From Gammaproteobacteria bacterium (GTDB lineage Bacteria > Pseudomonadota > Gammaproteobacteria > Pseudomonadales > Azotimanducaceae): DNA of 64,000 bases. The position numbers and the translations under genes are program-made. Location: contig VXYL01000013.1 in assembly GCA_009846005.1 (NCBI GenBank), forward strand, positions 1 to 64,000. The letters run 5' to 3'. The stretch's first letter is position 1, and the number at the start of each line of letters is the position of its first letter. Below, in pieces: positions 16,260 to 19,040 of the stretch. The notes under the pieces were generated by a model that was given only the letters and a program-made list of their open reading frames with translations, did not search any database and had not been told where the DNA came from.

Positions 16260-18089
16260 TCAACCGAGGGTGAATTCGAGAGCGCGGGTCTTCACGGTCA
16301 CCGCCAGTGCGGCTTCGAACTCGTCAAAGGGCATCGTGGCCTGCTGTCCAACCCCGTAGCGACGCAAGGTCACTGTGCCGGCGGCCGCTTCGCGTTCACC
16401 CACGATCAGGAGGTTCGGAATCTTGCGCGTTGTCGCATCGCGGATCTTCTTCGAGACGGTATCGCTCTCGGAGGCGAGTTCGGCGCGCACGAAACTCGCT
16501 CGCAGCCGATCGACGAGTCCTAGCGCATAGTCATGGAAGTGCTCGGACACTGTGATCACCTGGACCTGCACCGGTGCGAGCCACGTCGGGAAGGCGCCGC
16601 CGAAGTGCTCGATGAGTAGTGCCACCATGCGCTCGTGCGTGCTCAACGGCGCCCGGTGGACGCAATACGGAACGTGTTCGCCCCCATCGGCGCCGACATA
16701 CGTGAGGCCGACCCGCCCCGGCACCGCGAAGTCGAGTTGCACGGTGGAGAGCTGCTCGACCTTGCCCGTGACGGTTCGGAACATGACGTCGAGCTTGGGG
16801 CCGTAGAACGCAGCCTCCCCGGGTCCGTCCTCGTAGTCGATGCCCATTTCGTCCAGCAGACTGGCGATGATGGCTTCGGTTCGCGCCCAGTCGTCCGGCG
16901 CATCGACGTACTTCTCGCGCCCTTTGGGATCGTCCGGATCCCATCGCGACAGACGGATGACGTAGTCCTTGAGGCCTAGGATGCGGTACGCCTCGTCGTA
17001 CTCGGCGATGACTTCGCGGAACACCTCCTTTGTCTGTTCTTCCGTGCAGTAGATGTGGGCGTCGTTCATCGACAGCATGCGCACCCGGGCGAGGCCCGAA
17101 ACCGCCCCGGATGCCTCCCAACGATAGACCTGGCCGTACTCGGCGAGCCGCAGCGGCAGCTCGCGGTAGCTCCGCAGGCGCGCGGCGTAGATCTTGTGGT
17201 GGTGCGGGCAGTTCATGGGTTTGAGCATGTAGGTCTCGCGGATCGAACTGCCATCCGGTGTCTCCTCCACCACCTCCATCGGCGGATACATGGCTTCCTT
17301 GTAATGCTCGAGGTGACCGGTCTGCCTGTAAAGGCTGCCCTTGGCGATGTGCGGGGTGGCGACGCGCTGGTAGCCGGCCTTGAACTCGAGCTCGATGGCG
17401 AGCTTCTCCAACTCGTCCCGGATCACCGTGCCGTGGGGCATCCACAGCGGCAGGCCGCGGCCGATGGCGTCGTCGAAGGTGAACAACTCGAGCTCGCGGC
17501 CGAGTTTCTTGTGGTCGCGTTCCTGGGCGAGTTCGAAGGCAAGAACAGCTTCGTCGAGCGCCGCCCTGTCCGCGAACGCCCACGCGTAGATGCGGGTCAT
17601 CATCACGTTGTTCGAGTCCCCGCGCCAGTACGCGCCGGCGACACTGCGGAGCTTGAATGCATCCCGGCCGATGTCGCGGGTGGTTTCCACGTGGGGGCCT
17701 TCGCACATGTCGAGGAACGGTCCGTTGCGGTAGAACGACAGGGACAGAAGGCCGTTCTTCTCCACGAGTTCCTCCGCGTACTCGCGCTTGTAGGGCTCGC
17801 GCATCTCGTCGAGGCGGGCGAAGGCTTCGGCAAGTGGCACTTCCTCCCGGTAGAAGCGCTGGCCCTTCTTGAGGATCTTCTTCATGCGCCGCTCGAGTTC
17901 CGGGAAGTCGGCTTCGGTGAGCGGTTCGGTGAGGATGAAGTCGTAGTAGAAGCCATCCTCGATGGGGGGGCCGAATCCGAGGGTCGAGCCTTTGCGCATC
18001 TCGAGCACGGCCTGGGCCAGCACATGGGCAAGACTGTGCCGGATCCGGTGGAGCTGATCGTCCGGTTTGGATTCCTCTGGGTTGCGCAT
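16260..18089 (-). CDS. thrS: Threonyl-tRNA synthetase lacking the N-terminal TGS domain
   Basis: A 609-residue class II synthetase. The protein opens directly at the editing (SAD) domain (HSLAHVLAQAVLEM at about residue 18), so the roughly 60-residue TGS domain of most bacterial ThrRS is missing. An intrinsic terminator lies just upstream, so no hidden N-terminus exists. The catalytic core has the zinc ligands in MNCPHH, NDAHIYC and YCVHRA, and the dimer motif. SMNDAHIYC and an insert around DPDDPKGREKY mark a subtype different from the E. coli enzyme. A threonine-rich leader peptide precedes it. Confidence 0.95.
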   Translation of the reverse strand: MRNPEESKPDDQLHRIRHSLAHVLAQAVLEMRKGSTLGFGPPIEDGFYYDFILTEPLTEADFPELERRMKKILKKGQRFYREEVPLAEAFARLDEMREPYKREYAEELVEKNGLLSLSFYRNGPFLDMCEGPHVETTRDIGRDAFKLRSVAGAYWRGDSNNVMMTRIYAWAFADRAALDEAVLAFELAQERDHKKLGRELELFTFDDAIGRGLPLWMPHGTVIRDELEKLAIELEFKAGYQRVATPHIAKGSLYRQTGHLEHYKEAMYPPMEVVEETPDGSSIRETYMLKPMNCPHHHKIYAARLRSYRELPLRLAEYGQVYRWEASGAVSGLARVRMLSMNDAHIYCTEEQTKEVFREVIAEYDEAYRILGLKDYVIRLSRWDPDDPKGREKYVDAPDDWARTEAIIASLLDEMGIDYEDGPGEAAFYGPKLDVMFRTVTGKVEQLSTVQLDFAVPGRVGLTYVGADGGEHVPYCVHRAPLSTHERMVALLIEHFGGAFPTWLAPVQVQVITVSEHFHDYALGLVDRLRASFVRAELASESDTVSKKIRDATTRKIPNLLIVGEREAAAGTVTLRRYGVGQQATMPFDEFEAALAVTVKTRALEFTLG

Positions 18090-18120
18090 GGCGTGTCCTT
18101 CATGTCCTCTCGAGCGTGCA

Positions 18121-18155
18121 ACAAAAACCCCGGTTGGCCGTCGCCTTCCGGGGTT
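18121..18155 (-). terminator. Intrinsic terminator in the thrS leader (attenuator)
   Basis: On the minus strand AACCCCGG (18155-18148) pairs perfectly with CCGGGGTT (18133-18126), with a small inner GGC/GCC stem, followed by TTTTTG. It lies between the Thr-rich leader peptide and the thrS start, about 30 bases before the ATG, so it would abort thrS transcripts unless prevented from folding. Confidence 0.8.
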
Positions 18156-18162
18156 CTTCGAA

Positions 18163-18213
18163 GGGCGGCCTTCTCAAGTGGGCCGCCATTGTTCCATCGA
18201 TACTAGGCCGCCC
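18163..18213 (-). promoter_or_regulatory. Competing leader RNA segments upstream of thrS
   Basis: On the minus strand three segments can pair in alternative ways. GGGCGGCC (18213-18206) is the last codons of the leader peptide. GGCGGCC (18187-18181) follows the stop. GGCCGCCC (18170-18163) can pair with either. The last segment can also pair through GGCCG with CGGCC (18140-18136) in the terminator loop. This is the arrangement expected of an attenuator; which pairing is the antiterminator cannot be settled by eye. Confidence 0.6.
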
Positions 18214-18283
18214 CTCCACATGTCGTGGTGGTCGTCGTAGTGGCCGTCGTTTGTCCGATCGGATTCATAGCGACGCGCATCAT
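18203..18283 (-). CDS. Threonine-rich leader peptide of thrS
   Basis: A 26-codon frame on the minus strand, too short for usual gene calls. Residues 12-21 read TTATTTTTTT: nine threonines in ten codons, using ACG, ACT, ACC and ACA. It ends with CGGAA and a TAG at 18205-18203. The first ATG is at 18283; in-frame ATGs also occur at 18280 and 18268. GAAGA lies just before the first ATG as a weak ribosome site. It is followed by alternative RNA stems and an intrinsic terminator before thrS. By analogy with known leader peptides (thrL, pheM), ribosome pausing when charged Thr-tRNA is scarce should allow read-through into thrS. Confidence 0.8.
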   Translation of the reverse strand: MMRVAMNPIGQTTATTTTTTTCGGAA

Positions 18284-18304
18284 ACGGTCTTCGTGCCCGA
18301 TTGT

Positions 18305-18386
18305 GTAGGGGACGGGCGTTGTCCCGTCCCGTTGCCGAGAGCCGGCATAGCGGGCACGCGCGGGCGGACTAGCGCGCCCCTACGGG
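18305..18386. repeat. Palindromic repeats upstream of the thrS leader
   Basis: GTAGGGGACGGGCGTTGTCC and the following CGTCCCG form a hairpin at 18305-18331, 22 bases upstream of the leader peptide ATG. A related composite (GCACGCGCGGGCGG to GCGCGCCCCTACGG) runs to about 18386. The thrS promoter must lie in or beyond these repeats; I could not fix it. Confidence 0.75.
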
Positions 18387-18473
18387 TTGTTTCGCGTGAT
18401 TCAACGGGTTGAAAATGTGCTCCATGCAAGTTCAGCTAGGGAGCCGGGCGCCGGCGTGCAGAGAAGACGGAGC

Positions 18474-18553
18474 GTAGGGGACGGGCTTGTCCCGTCCCGT
18501 TGCCAAGGGAGCCGGTACGTTCGGCACGGGCGACCACAAGGGTCGCCCCTACG
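18474..18553. repeat. Two palindromic repeats of different families
   Basis: GTAGGGGACGGGCTTGTCCC followed by GTCCCG spans 18474-18499. The second family, GGGCGACCACAAGGGTCGCC followed by CCTACG, spans 18528-18553 and is a near-perfect hairpin. They lie just upstream of the DUF4019 lipoprotein gene. Confidence 0.85.
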
Positions 18554-18584
18554 ATTTCACCATCCGGTTCAACGGGTTGCGGGC

Positions 18585-19040
18585 TTGTTCCGAGCGAAAA
18601 GCCTAAGCGGACTGGGCTGGAAGCGCACTACGGCGTTGCTCGCGGTGCTCGGTCTCGTGCTCGGTGCCTGCTCGGAGAGCAACCCCGAGGCGGAGCGGGC
18701 CGCCTACGAGGCCACGAAACCCTGGATCGCGTGGATGGACGAGGGCGAATACGAGAAGTGCTGGGACGAGGCGGCGCCCTGGTTCCGGGACAATATCTCC
18801 TCGCGGGACATGTGGATTGCGAAGGCCCGCGAGACGCGGGACCCCTTGGGCAAATTGCTCTTTCGGGAACTGAACACCACGACGTACAAGACCAACCCGA
18901 TGGGGGCGCCGGATGGCGAATACACGATCGTCGTCTACACGTCGAGTTGGGATGCCGGGAACATCTACGAGTCGGTATCGATGCAACGCCAGGCCGATGG
19001 CTCCTGGGGTGTCGTCGGATACTTCGTGAAGCAGCAATAG
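18585..19040 (+). CDS. DUF4019 family lipoprotein
   Basis: The C-terminal 110 residues match the DUF4019 pattern: YEATKPWIAWMDEGEYEKCW, WFRDNISSRDMWIAKARETR, LLFRELNTTTYKTNPMGAPDG and a final GSWGVVGYFVKQQ. The N-terminus has a basic WKR followed by ALLAVLGLVLGAC, a lipobox. There is no ATG before the signal, so I place the start at a TTG (18585), about 15 residues before the hydrophobic segment; this is uncertain. The stop overlaps the GTG of the thiolase-like gene by one base. The function of DUF4019 proteins is not known. Confidence 0.7.
   Translation: MFRAKSLSGLGWKRTTALLAVLGLVLGACSESNPEAERAAYEATKPWIAWMDEGEYEKCWDEAAPWFRDNISSRDMWIAKARETRDPLGKLLFRELNTTTYKTNPMGAPDGEYTIVVYTSSWDAGNIYESVSMQRQADGSWGVVGYFVKQQ

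Follow-up and report, generated by a model that had tools for sequence, protein, structure and literature searches.

What controls thrS in a gammaproteobacterium in which the gene lies behind a short threonine-rich reading frame and a terminator? According to the available text of PMC11088916, thrS of E. coli is governed by a translational operator, at which threonyl-tRNA synthetase (ThrRS) is bound to tRNA-like hairpins. For the 64,000-nucleotide stretch of DNA analysed here (the window), a preliminary description had proposed attenuation at Thr codons instead, and this proposal is supported by a Thr run accompanied by a terminator across genera, by the enrichment of Thr among the amino acids of the leaders, and by helices tested through the swapping of pairing partners. 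We consider it highly probable that the locus specifies a ribosome-mediated transcription attenuator which senses the charging of tRNA-Thr and controls thrS, the dependence on charging being a prediction.

The assembly, with a completeness rating of 97%, yielded no thrS other than that of the window (Table 1). No TGS domain was found by Pfam in the product of this gene, and residue 8 of this ThrRS aligned to residue 63 of the E. coli enzyme (1qf6). The upstream neighbour, a DUF4019 protein encoded by a plus-strand frame at 18387-19040, is divergent from thrS, and for this reason the terminator described below is not that of the DUF4019 gene.

Table 1. Features of the thrS leader region in the window
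Feature	Position	Strand	Basis
thrS, threonyl-tRNA synthetase, 609 aa, without N-terminal TGS domain	16260..18089	-	thrS equivalog match
D2, terminator 3' arm and T5 (CCGGGGTTTTT)	18123..18133	-	
D', loop of the terminator (GGCGACGGCC), proposed antiterminator partner of C	18136..18145	-	
D1, terminator 5' arm (AACCCCGG)	18148..18155	-	
Segment C (GGCCGCCCTT), partner of B (termination) or of the terminator loop (antitermination)	18161..18170	-	
Segment B (GGCGGCCC)	18180..18187	-	
Leader ORF, 21 codons, MNPIGQTTATTTTTTTCGGAA and stop, nine Thr codons	18203..18268	-	sequence and relatives' start position
Segment A, final codons of the leader (GGAGGGGCGGCC), pairing alternatively with B and, in the window, also with C	18206..18217	-	
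Thr-codon run, nine Thr in ten codons, proposed sensor	18221..18250	-	sequence
-10 box TATGAT (predicted)	18279..18284	-	sequence, position as in relatives
-35 box position, degenerate ACACAA in the window	18301..18306	-	relatives' boxes at the same place

A minus-strand frame of 26 codons (18283-18203) is open upstream of thrS and reads MMRVAMNPIGQTTATTTTTTTCGGAA up to its stop codon, with nine Thr within residues 12-21, just as had been described. The 26-codon start did not survive, as the first two ATGs overlap the predicted -10 box TATGAT; for the same reason the third ATG, at 18268, is the likelier start. It stands 10 nt 3' of the -10 box, matching the spacing in loci L082-L085, and a start codon 5-10 nt after this box was seen at 25 of 32 loci. 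From such a distance the mRNA should begin at the start codon or a few bases before it, and the leader ORF is probably translated from a leaderless mRNA, a view that depends on the predicted position of the promoter. A leader of this leaderless-looking kind would test leaderless initiation in attenuation outside the actinobacteria. The -35 box is TTGCAA or TTGCAT in several relatives (TTGCAA, 16 nt ahead of TATGAT, in L082, L084 and L085) and poor in the window. A palindromic repeat near GGGACGGGACAAGCCCGTCCCC is present at 18309-18330, 18477-18498 and six more places of the window, that is, eight matches with at most three mismatches to the pattern versus 0.02 expected; one copy adjoins the leader promoter, and there the -35 sequence is degenerate when set beside that of L082.

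Is the Thr run more than a chance string of codons? Over all six frames, the window reaches nine or more Thr in ten codons just once, and 40 third-order Markov sequences of 64 kb never did. Lowering the threshold to at least seven in ten gave two stretches in the window versus three in total across the 40 Markov sequences. Seven-codon ACN runs are found three times in the 4.96-Mb assembly of 106 contigs, once in the leader; the two others arise when Asp- or His/Asp-rich frames, open over the approximately 90 residues inspected, are read out of frame. When the leader codons of the window (L001), L082 and L083 were compared pairwise, 3-9 synonymous and 0-2 non-synonymous changes were counted, and the pairs with L084 differed by 3-4 synonymous and 4-6 non-synonymous changes. 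The nine Thr positions are unchanged in all four loci. The leader ORF has, in other words, what is looked for in an attenuator, repeated codons for the amino acid that the product of the controlled gene handles.

Behind this ORF, on the minus strand, GGCGGCC (18187-18181) is perfectly complementary to GGCCGCC (18170-18164). It is followed by a terminator in which AACCCCGG (18155-18148) faces CCGGGG (18133-18128), with T5 at 18127-18123, and by its sequence this is an intrinsic terminator between the leader ORF and thrS. The stem and the terminator with its T5 tract had both been noted beforehand and are borne out by the sequence; the gap between the stop codon and the GGCGGCC arm measures 15 bases and not the 21 first given.

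From this layout we propose that transcription would begin on the leader AUG or within a few bases upstream of it. Given ample Thr-tRNA, the ribosome would reach the stop codon and cover segment A, upon which B would pair with C and the terminator D1:D2 would form. If Thr-tRNA were short, the ribosome would stall in the Thr run and leave A free, A:B would form, and C would then pair with the terminator loop D', keeping D1 from D2, such that RNA polymerase would read into thrS.

The alternative pairings were assessed by comparison. Segments A, B, C and D' were taken from alignment A1, which was made without 8 of the 39 terminator loci (L123, L125, L130, L135, L138, L141, L142 and L144), and the pair formed by each locus's own partners was set against partners swapped among loci in 20,000 swaps. 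With 23 loci, no swap was as good as the own partners for C:D', two were for B:C and 12 for A:B, and the control pairings gave 988 (A:C), 18,128 (B:D) and 8,413 (A:D). Restricting the test to one locus per genus (15 loci) gave 0, 1 and 632 for C:D', B:C and A:B, with 3,241, 19,549 and 12,100 for the controls A:C, B:D and A:D. By these counts the C:D' and B:C helices are well supported and the A:B helix moderately so, weakly at one locus per genus. At L151 the C:D' helix is predicted with different letters, GGGGCGCTGC with GCAGCGCCCC. RNAalifold placed changes on both sides in three of the six B:C pairs of its consensus, the terminator arms hardly varied, and the covariation term was small (-0.37 of -11.19). 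The preliminary description had the last leader codons replace the first arm of the stem, which amounts to A:C. This pairing is strong in the window and is not conserved (988 of the 20,000 swaps as good), and the helices that the comparison supports are instead A:B, B:C and that of C with the terminator loop.

Folding of the leader RNA, which the earlier description had put forward as a check, gave a result in two parts. When the RNA downstream of A was folded, as if the ribosome were at the stop codon, B:C and D1:D2 formed in all 23 loci. When A was kept and D2 omitted, as though still untranscribed, C:D' formed in 16 of the 23 (13 of them with A:B), A:D' in four, and neither in three, namely the window (L001), L100 and L126. 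Here the expectation failed for the window itself, the minimum-energy fold of which is A:C: A pairs over 12 bases with C, at -37.4 kcal/mol for the fold from A to D', and A:B together with C:D' reaches -36.1 kcal/mol, 1.3 kcal/mol worse. In the stalled state the A:C fold would leave the terminator free to form. For the near twin L083 the minimum-energy fold is A:B plus C:D'; L084 favours A:C. Since A:B folds before C is made (alone, at -18.0 kcal/mol in the window), co-transcriptional order may favour A:B over A:C there. The mutually exclusive antiterminator is, then, supported by comparison for the family, and in the window A:C competes with it.

The geometry was examined in 20 loci, with the best A partner of B looked for among the final 36 bases of the ORF plus the six that follow. 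Measured from the end of the stop codon, this partner begins 2-29 nt upstream and B 6-29 nt downstream; in the window B follows at 15 nt. A ribosome covers 9 nt beyond the A-site codon; on this assumed footprint, a stall in the window leaves A free at eight of the nine Thr codons. The geometry is poor in L133, L158, L096 and L100, where 0 of 4, 2 of 6, 3 of 8 and 3 of 10 Thr codons, respectively, would leave A free.

How far does the device extend among relatives? In 150 genomes of the GTDB family of the window, drawn evenly, thrS was searched for and found in 143. Among the matches listed, the products fall into two types, with about 61-100% and about 36-43% identity to the ThrRS of the window, and we refer to them as the TGS-less and the ordinary type. 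Upstream regions were taken from 82 of the 90 genomes with the TGS-less type (at least 60% identity, among the matches listed); G029, G036, G048, G065, G086, G100, G107 and G126 were left out, six of these matches being incomplete. All but L118, which has no upstream sequence, were usable, leaving 81 loci. A covariance model (R2) comprising hairpin B:C and the terminator was built from 31 family loci.

R2 matched on the thrS strand at 43 of the 81 loci, these being 43 of 49 in the first set (E up to 0.003) and none of 32 in the second (E up to 0.1); at L124 the match lies approximately 270 nt upstream, farther than at the other loci. None of 28 ordinary-type thrS loci of the family was matched. 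Of the 43 matching loci, 33 (L130 being doubtful) have upstream a mini-ORF in which Thr fills four or more of ten codons, versus 1 of the 38 without a match. The association of Thr run and R2 match has a Fisher p of about 1e-12, uncorrected for kinship and with a count of 32 or 33 of 43 depending on L130. By genus, R2 matches occur in 19 of the 24 genera with the TGS-less ThrRS, and a Thr run together with a match in 16 of these (15 without L130). At a threshold of at least five in ten codons, Thr was reached in 25 of the 81 loci, and the next amino acid, Arg, in seven. Furthermore, when the leader ORF was picked by its distance from the -10 box and the terminator, ignoring its content, 32 of 39 loci gave one, and 28 of these 32 had at least four Thr in ten codons; next came Arg with three. 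The comparison of thrS leaders called for at the outset thus showed Thr run and terminator match together in 15-16 of the 24 genera, Thr being the enriched amino acid.

Relatives that keep thrS and lack the Thr run, named beforehand as the observation that would speak against attenuation, do occur. Of the 38 loci without an R2 match, 37 also lack the run, and this pattern reads as loss of the whole device. Genus g33 (L106, L109, L110 and L115-L117) has carrier-like TTGCAT and TATGAT boxes, no terminator match and no Thr run, and would seem to have kept the promoter after the attenuator was gone. Terminator matches with no clear Thr leader were seen at L125 and L130 (genus g20), and also at L097 and L102 (genus g7), where a -10-like box stands directly ahead of the terminator.

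Altogether, 10 of the 43 matching loci keep the terminator match with no Thr run of four in ten. Perhaps, then, the translated leader and terminator answer to another signal, through coupling to general translation (or Rho), the Thr run being a by-product of ACG-rich sequence; leaderless initiation could conceivably sense ribosome supply. We regard this as very unlikely, as Thr is kept through synonymous changes in the four close loci and exceeds the next amino acid in the leaders by a wide margin, and the other seven-codon ACN runs of the assembly are out-of-frame readings. Less likely still is a fixed partial terminator that would hold thrS at a constant low level, with a mini-ORF of no regulatory role. 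L097 and L102 of genus g7, having a -10-like box and terminator and no Thr-rich ORF, would suit such an arrangement, which leaves unexplained the support for C:D', B:C and A:B and the association of the Thr run with the terminator.

Translational autorepression in the E. coli style, with ThrRS binding a tRNA-Thr-like hairpin in its own mRNA, is what the accessible part of PMC11088916 reports for E. coli thrS, and in the family it may operate on the ordinary type. Hairpins with a seven-base loop of the NGU type precede thrS in 18 of the 28 ordinary family loci, about 33 nt before the start, a count made with no shuffled control and with the start not located in two of the 28; three further hairpins are broken by one mismatch, as judged by eye. 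The class and phylum loci have 15 such hairpins in 59, with CGU, GGU or AGU loops, likewise with no shuffled control. Ordinary thrS loci with a tRNA-Thr-like anticodon loop (GGU, CGU or AGU) include L164, L166, L167, L190, L250 and L252. Yet no such hairpin was found at thrS of the window, only three scattered cases were met in the 81 TGS-less-type loci, and the ThrRS of the window has no TGS domain; we therefore rejected an E. coli-type operator at the window, and of the three alternatives autorepression is the one to which we give least credence. The window and the E. coli operator have in common that the same enzyme is controlled, and differ in that the operator is translational and its hairpin was not found here. 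A T-box leader can be dismissed, as no Rfam family reached its gathering score in the window and T-box was not among the seven matches to E 10 in 18060-18420.

In the named genome set, the best ThrRS matches from other phyla, as judged by record titles (L013-L018), are 58-62% identical to the ThrRS of the window, among the matches listed, and the TGS-less type was not found outside the family in 293 genomes of the order and 369 of the class (E <= 1e-200). A tree of 42 ThrRS united the 36 family rows in one group (100/100). Attenuator carriers lie on both sides of the deepest fork of this group, and the carrier label needs four changes; it included L097, L099, L102 and two g20 rows, which have a terminator match and a leader that is absent, decayed or doubtful. 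This distribution fits one gain and several losses of the attenuator. In genus g8 the attenuator is absent and thrS follows closely after another coding frame, which we take to be acnA from the likeness of its sequence. We lean towards a history in which one gammaproteobacterial family acquired a TGS-less ThrRS and dropped the ordinary one. With this exchange the tRNA-mimic operator would have been superseded by a Thr-codon attenuator, leaderless and with an antiterminator that uses the terminator loop; several branches would later have lost this attenuator. If so, one family offers a natural case of an essential enzyme controlled by two different means, depending on ThrRS type, and one can ask by experiment whether losing the TGS domain disrupts operator control and clears a path for attenuation.

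R2 gave matches at E <= 1e-4 in 4 of the 293 order genomes and 5 of the 369 class genomes, the genome of the window being counted in both. Two of the matched loci, L174 and L175, belong to genomes of the family and are described below. The matches outside the family (L176-L181) have at most three Thr in ten codons upstream, look like chance terminators and were set aside. In most genomes this search scored 13-17 candidates and would miss many true cases, and it is for that reason weak as a negative. No Thr-rich mini-ORF was found at 59 class and phylum thrS loci (the best 30 of each of two samples, one shared), and among eleven named loci outside the family L024 alone matched R2, at E 0.43.

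The likeness to known systems is one of principle. Rfam Thr_leader (RF00506) represents the thrABC attenuator of E. coli with thrL, which comprises a Thr-rich leader peptide, alternative hairpins and a terminator; the codons of thrL also include Ile. Against the window this model scored 17.4 bits (E 0.7), below its gathering score of 55. Both have a Thr-rich leader, alternative hairpins and a terminator ahead of a Thr gene, whereas the leader in the window would control thrS and its segment C would pair with the terminator loop. The pheM-pheST leader attenuator of enteric bacteria shares with the window leader-peptide attenuation of a gammaproteobacterial aminoacyl-tRNA synthetase, with Phe in place of Thr, another gene and another leader. 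The available text of PMC1262725 names pheST as a gammaproteobacterial attenuator case, and reports no conserved element for the threonine operons of actinobacteria.

For Streptomyces lividans, the part of PMC8079986 at hand proposes thrL-thrS, a leaderless Thr leader 18 residues long, two of them Thr, together with a single hairpin and without a clear terminator. The two share a proposed Thr leader ahead of thrS, probably leaderless in the window as well, but in the same portion the S. lividans account (PMC8079986) offers neither alternative pairing nor comparison, unlike the case made for the window. In bacilli, hisS/hisZ have a His leader peptide, the alternative device being the T-box, according to an excerpt of PMC2965389, which mentions E. 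coli threonyl-tRNA synthetase just as an autoregulator. There, as proposed for the window, a leader peptide acts on synthetase genes that are controlled otherwise in relatives; the amino acid and the phylum differ, and the alternative in bacilli is the T-box. The accessible portions of PMC2330054, PMC4833913 and PMC3858243 contain no thrS leader peptide. The preliminary description knew of no Thr-leader attenuator for a gammaproteobacterial thrS; in agreement with this, our literature search, with most subscription journals outside its reach, found none for thrS in a proteobacterium and gave the S. lividans case only. The device of the window would accordingly be placed within a known class, the leader-peptide attenuators, with one weak thrS precedent in print, that of S. 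lividans. If the proposal is true, it provides a leader-peptide attenuator, backed by comparison, for thrS, whose known control is otherwise translational autorepression.

A second leader was observed in the same genome on contig C42, where L207:281-370 (+) encodes MNASLTDTGPTGSTVTTVAGGAWYWFFHR and is followed by a terminator. Behind it lies a DAHP synthase gene (L207:447-1538; PF00793), and the R2 match has an E-value of 0.011. R2 thereby pointed to another candidate attenuator of the family, an aromatic leader ahead of DAHP synthase, which carries no Rfam name. R2 matches also precede DAHP synthase-like frames on the minus strand of L174 and L175, from other genomes of the family, in which the upstream frames end in GWWFTYFKS and GYFWLGYFYFIDR. 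The sequences of these leaders suggest attenuation by aromatic amino acids.
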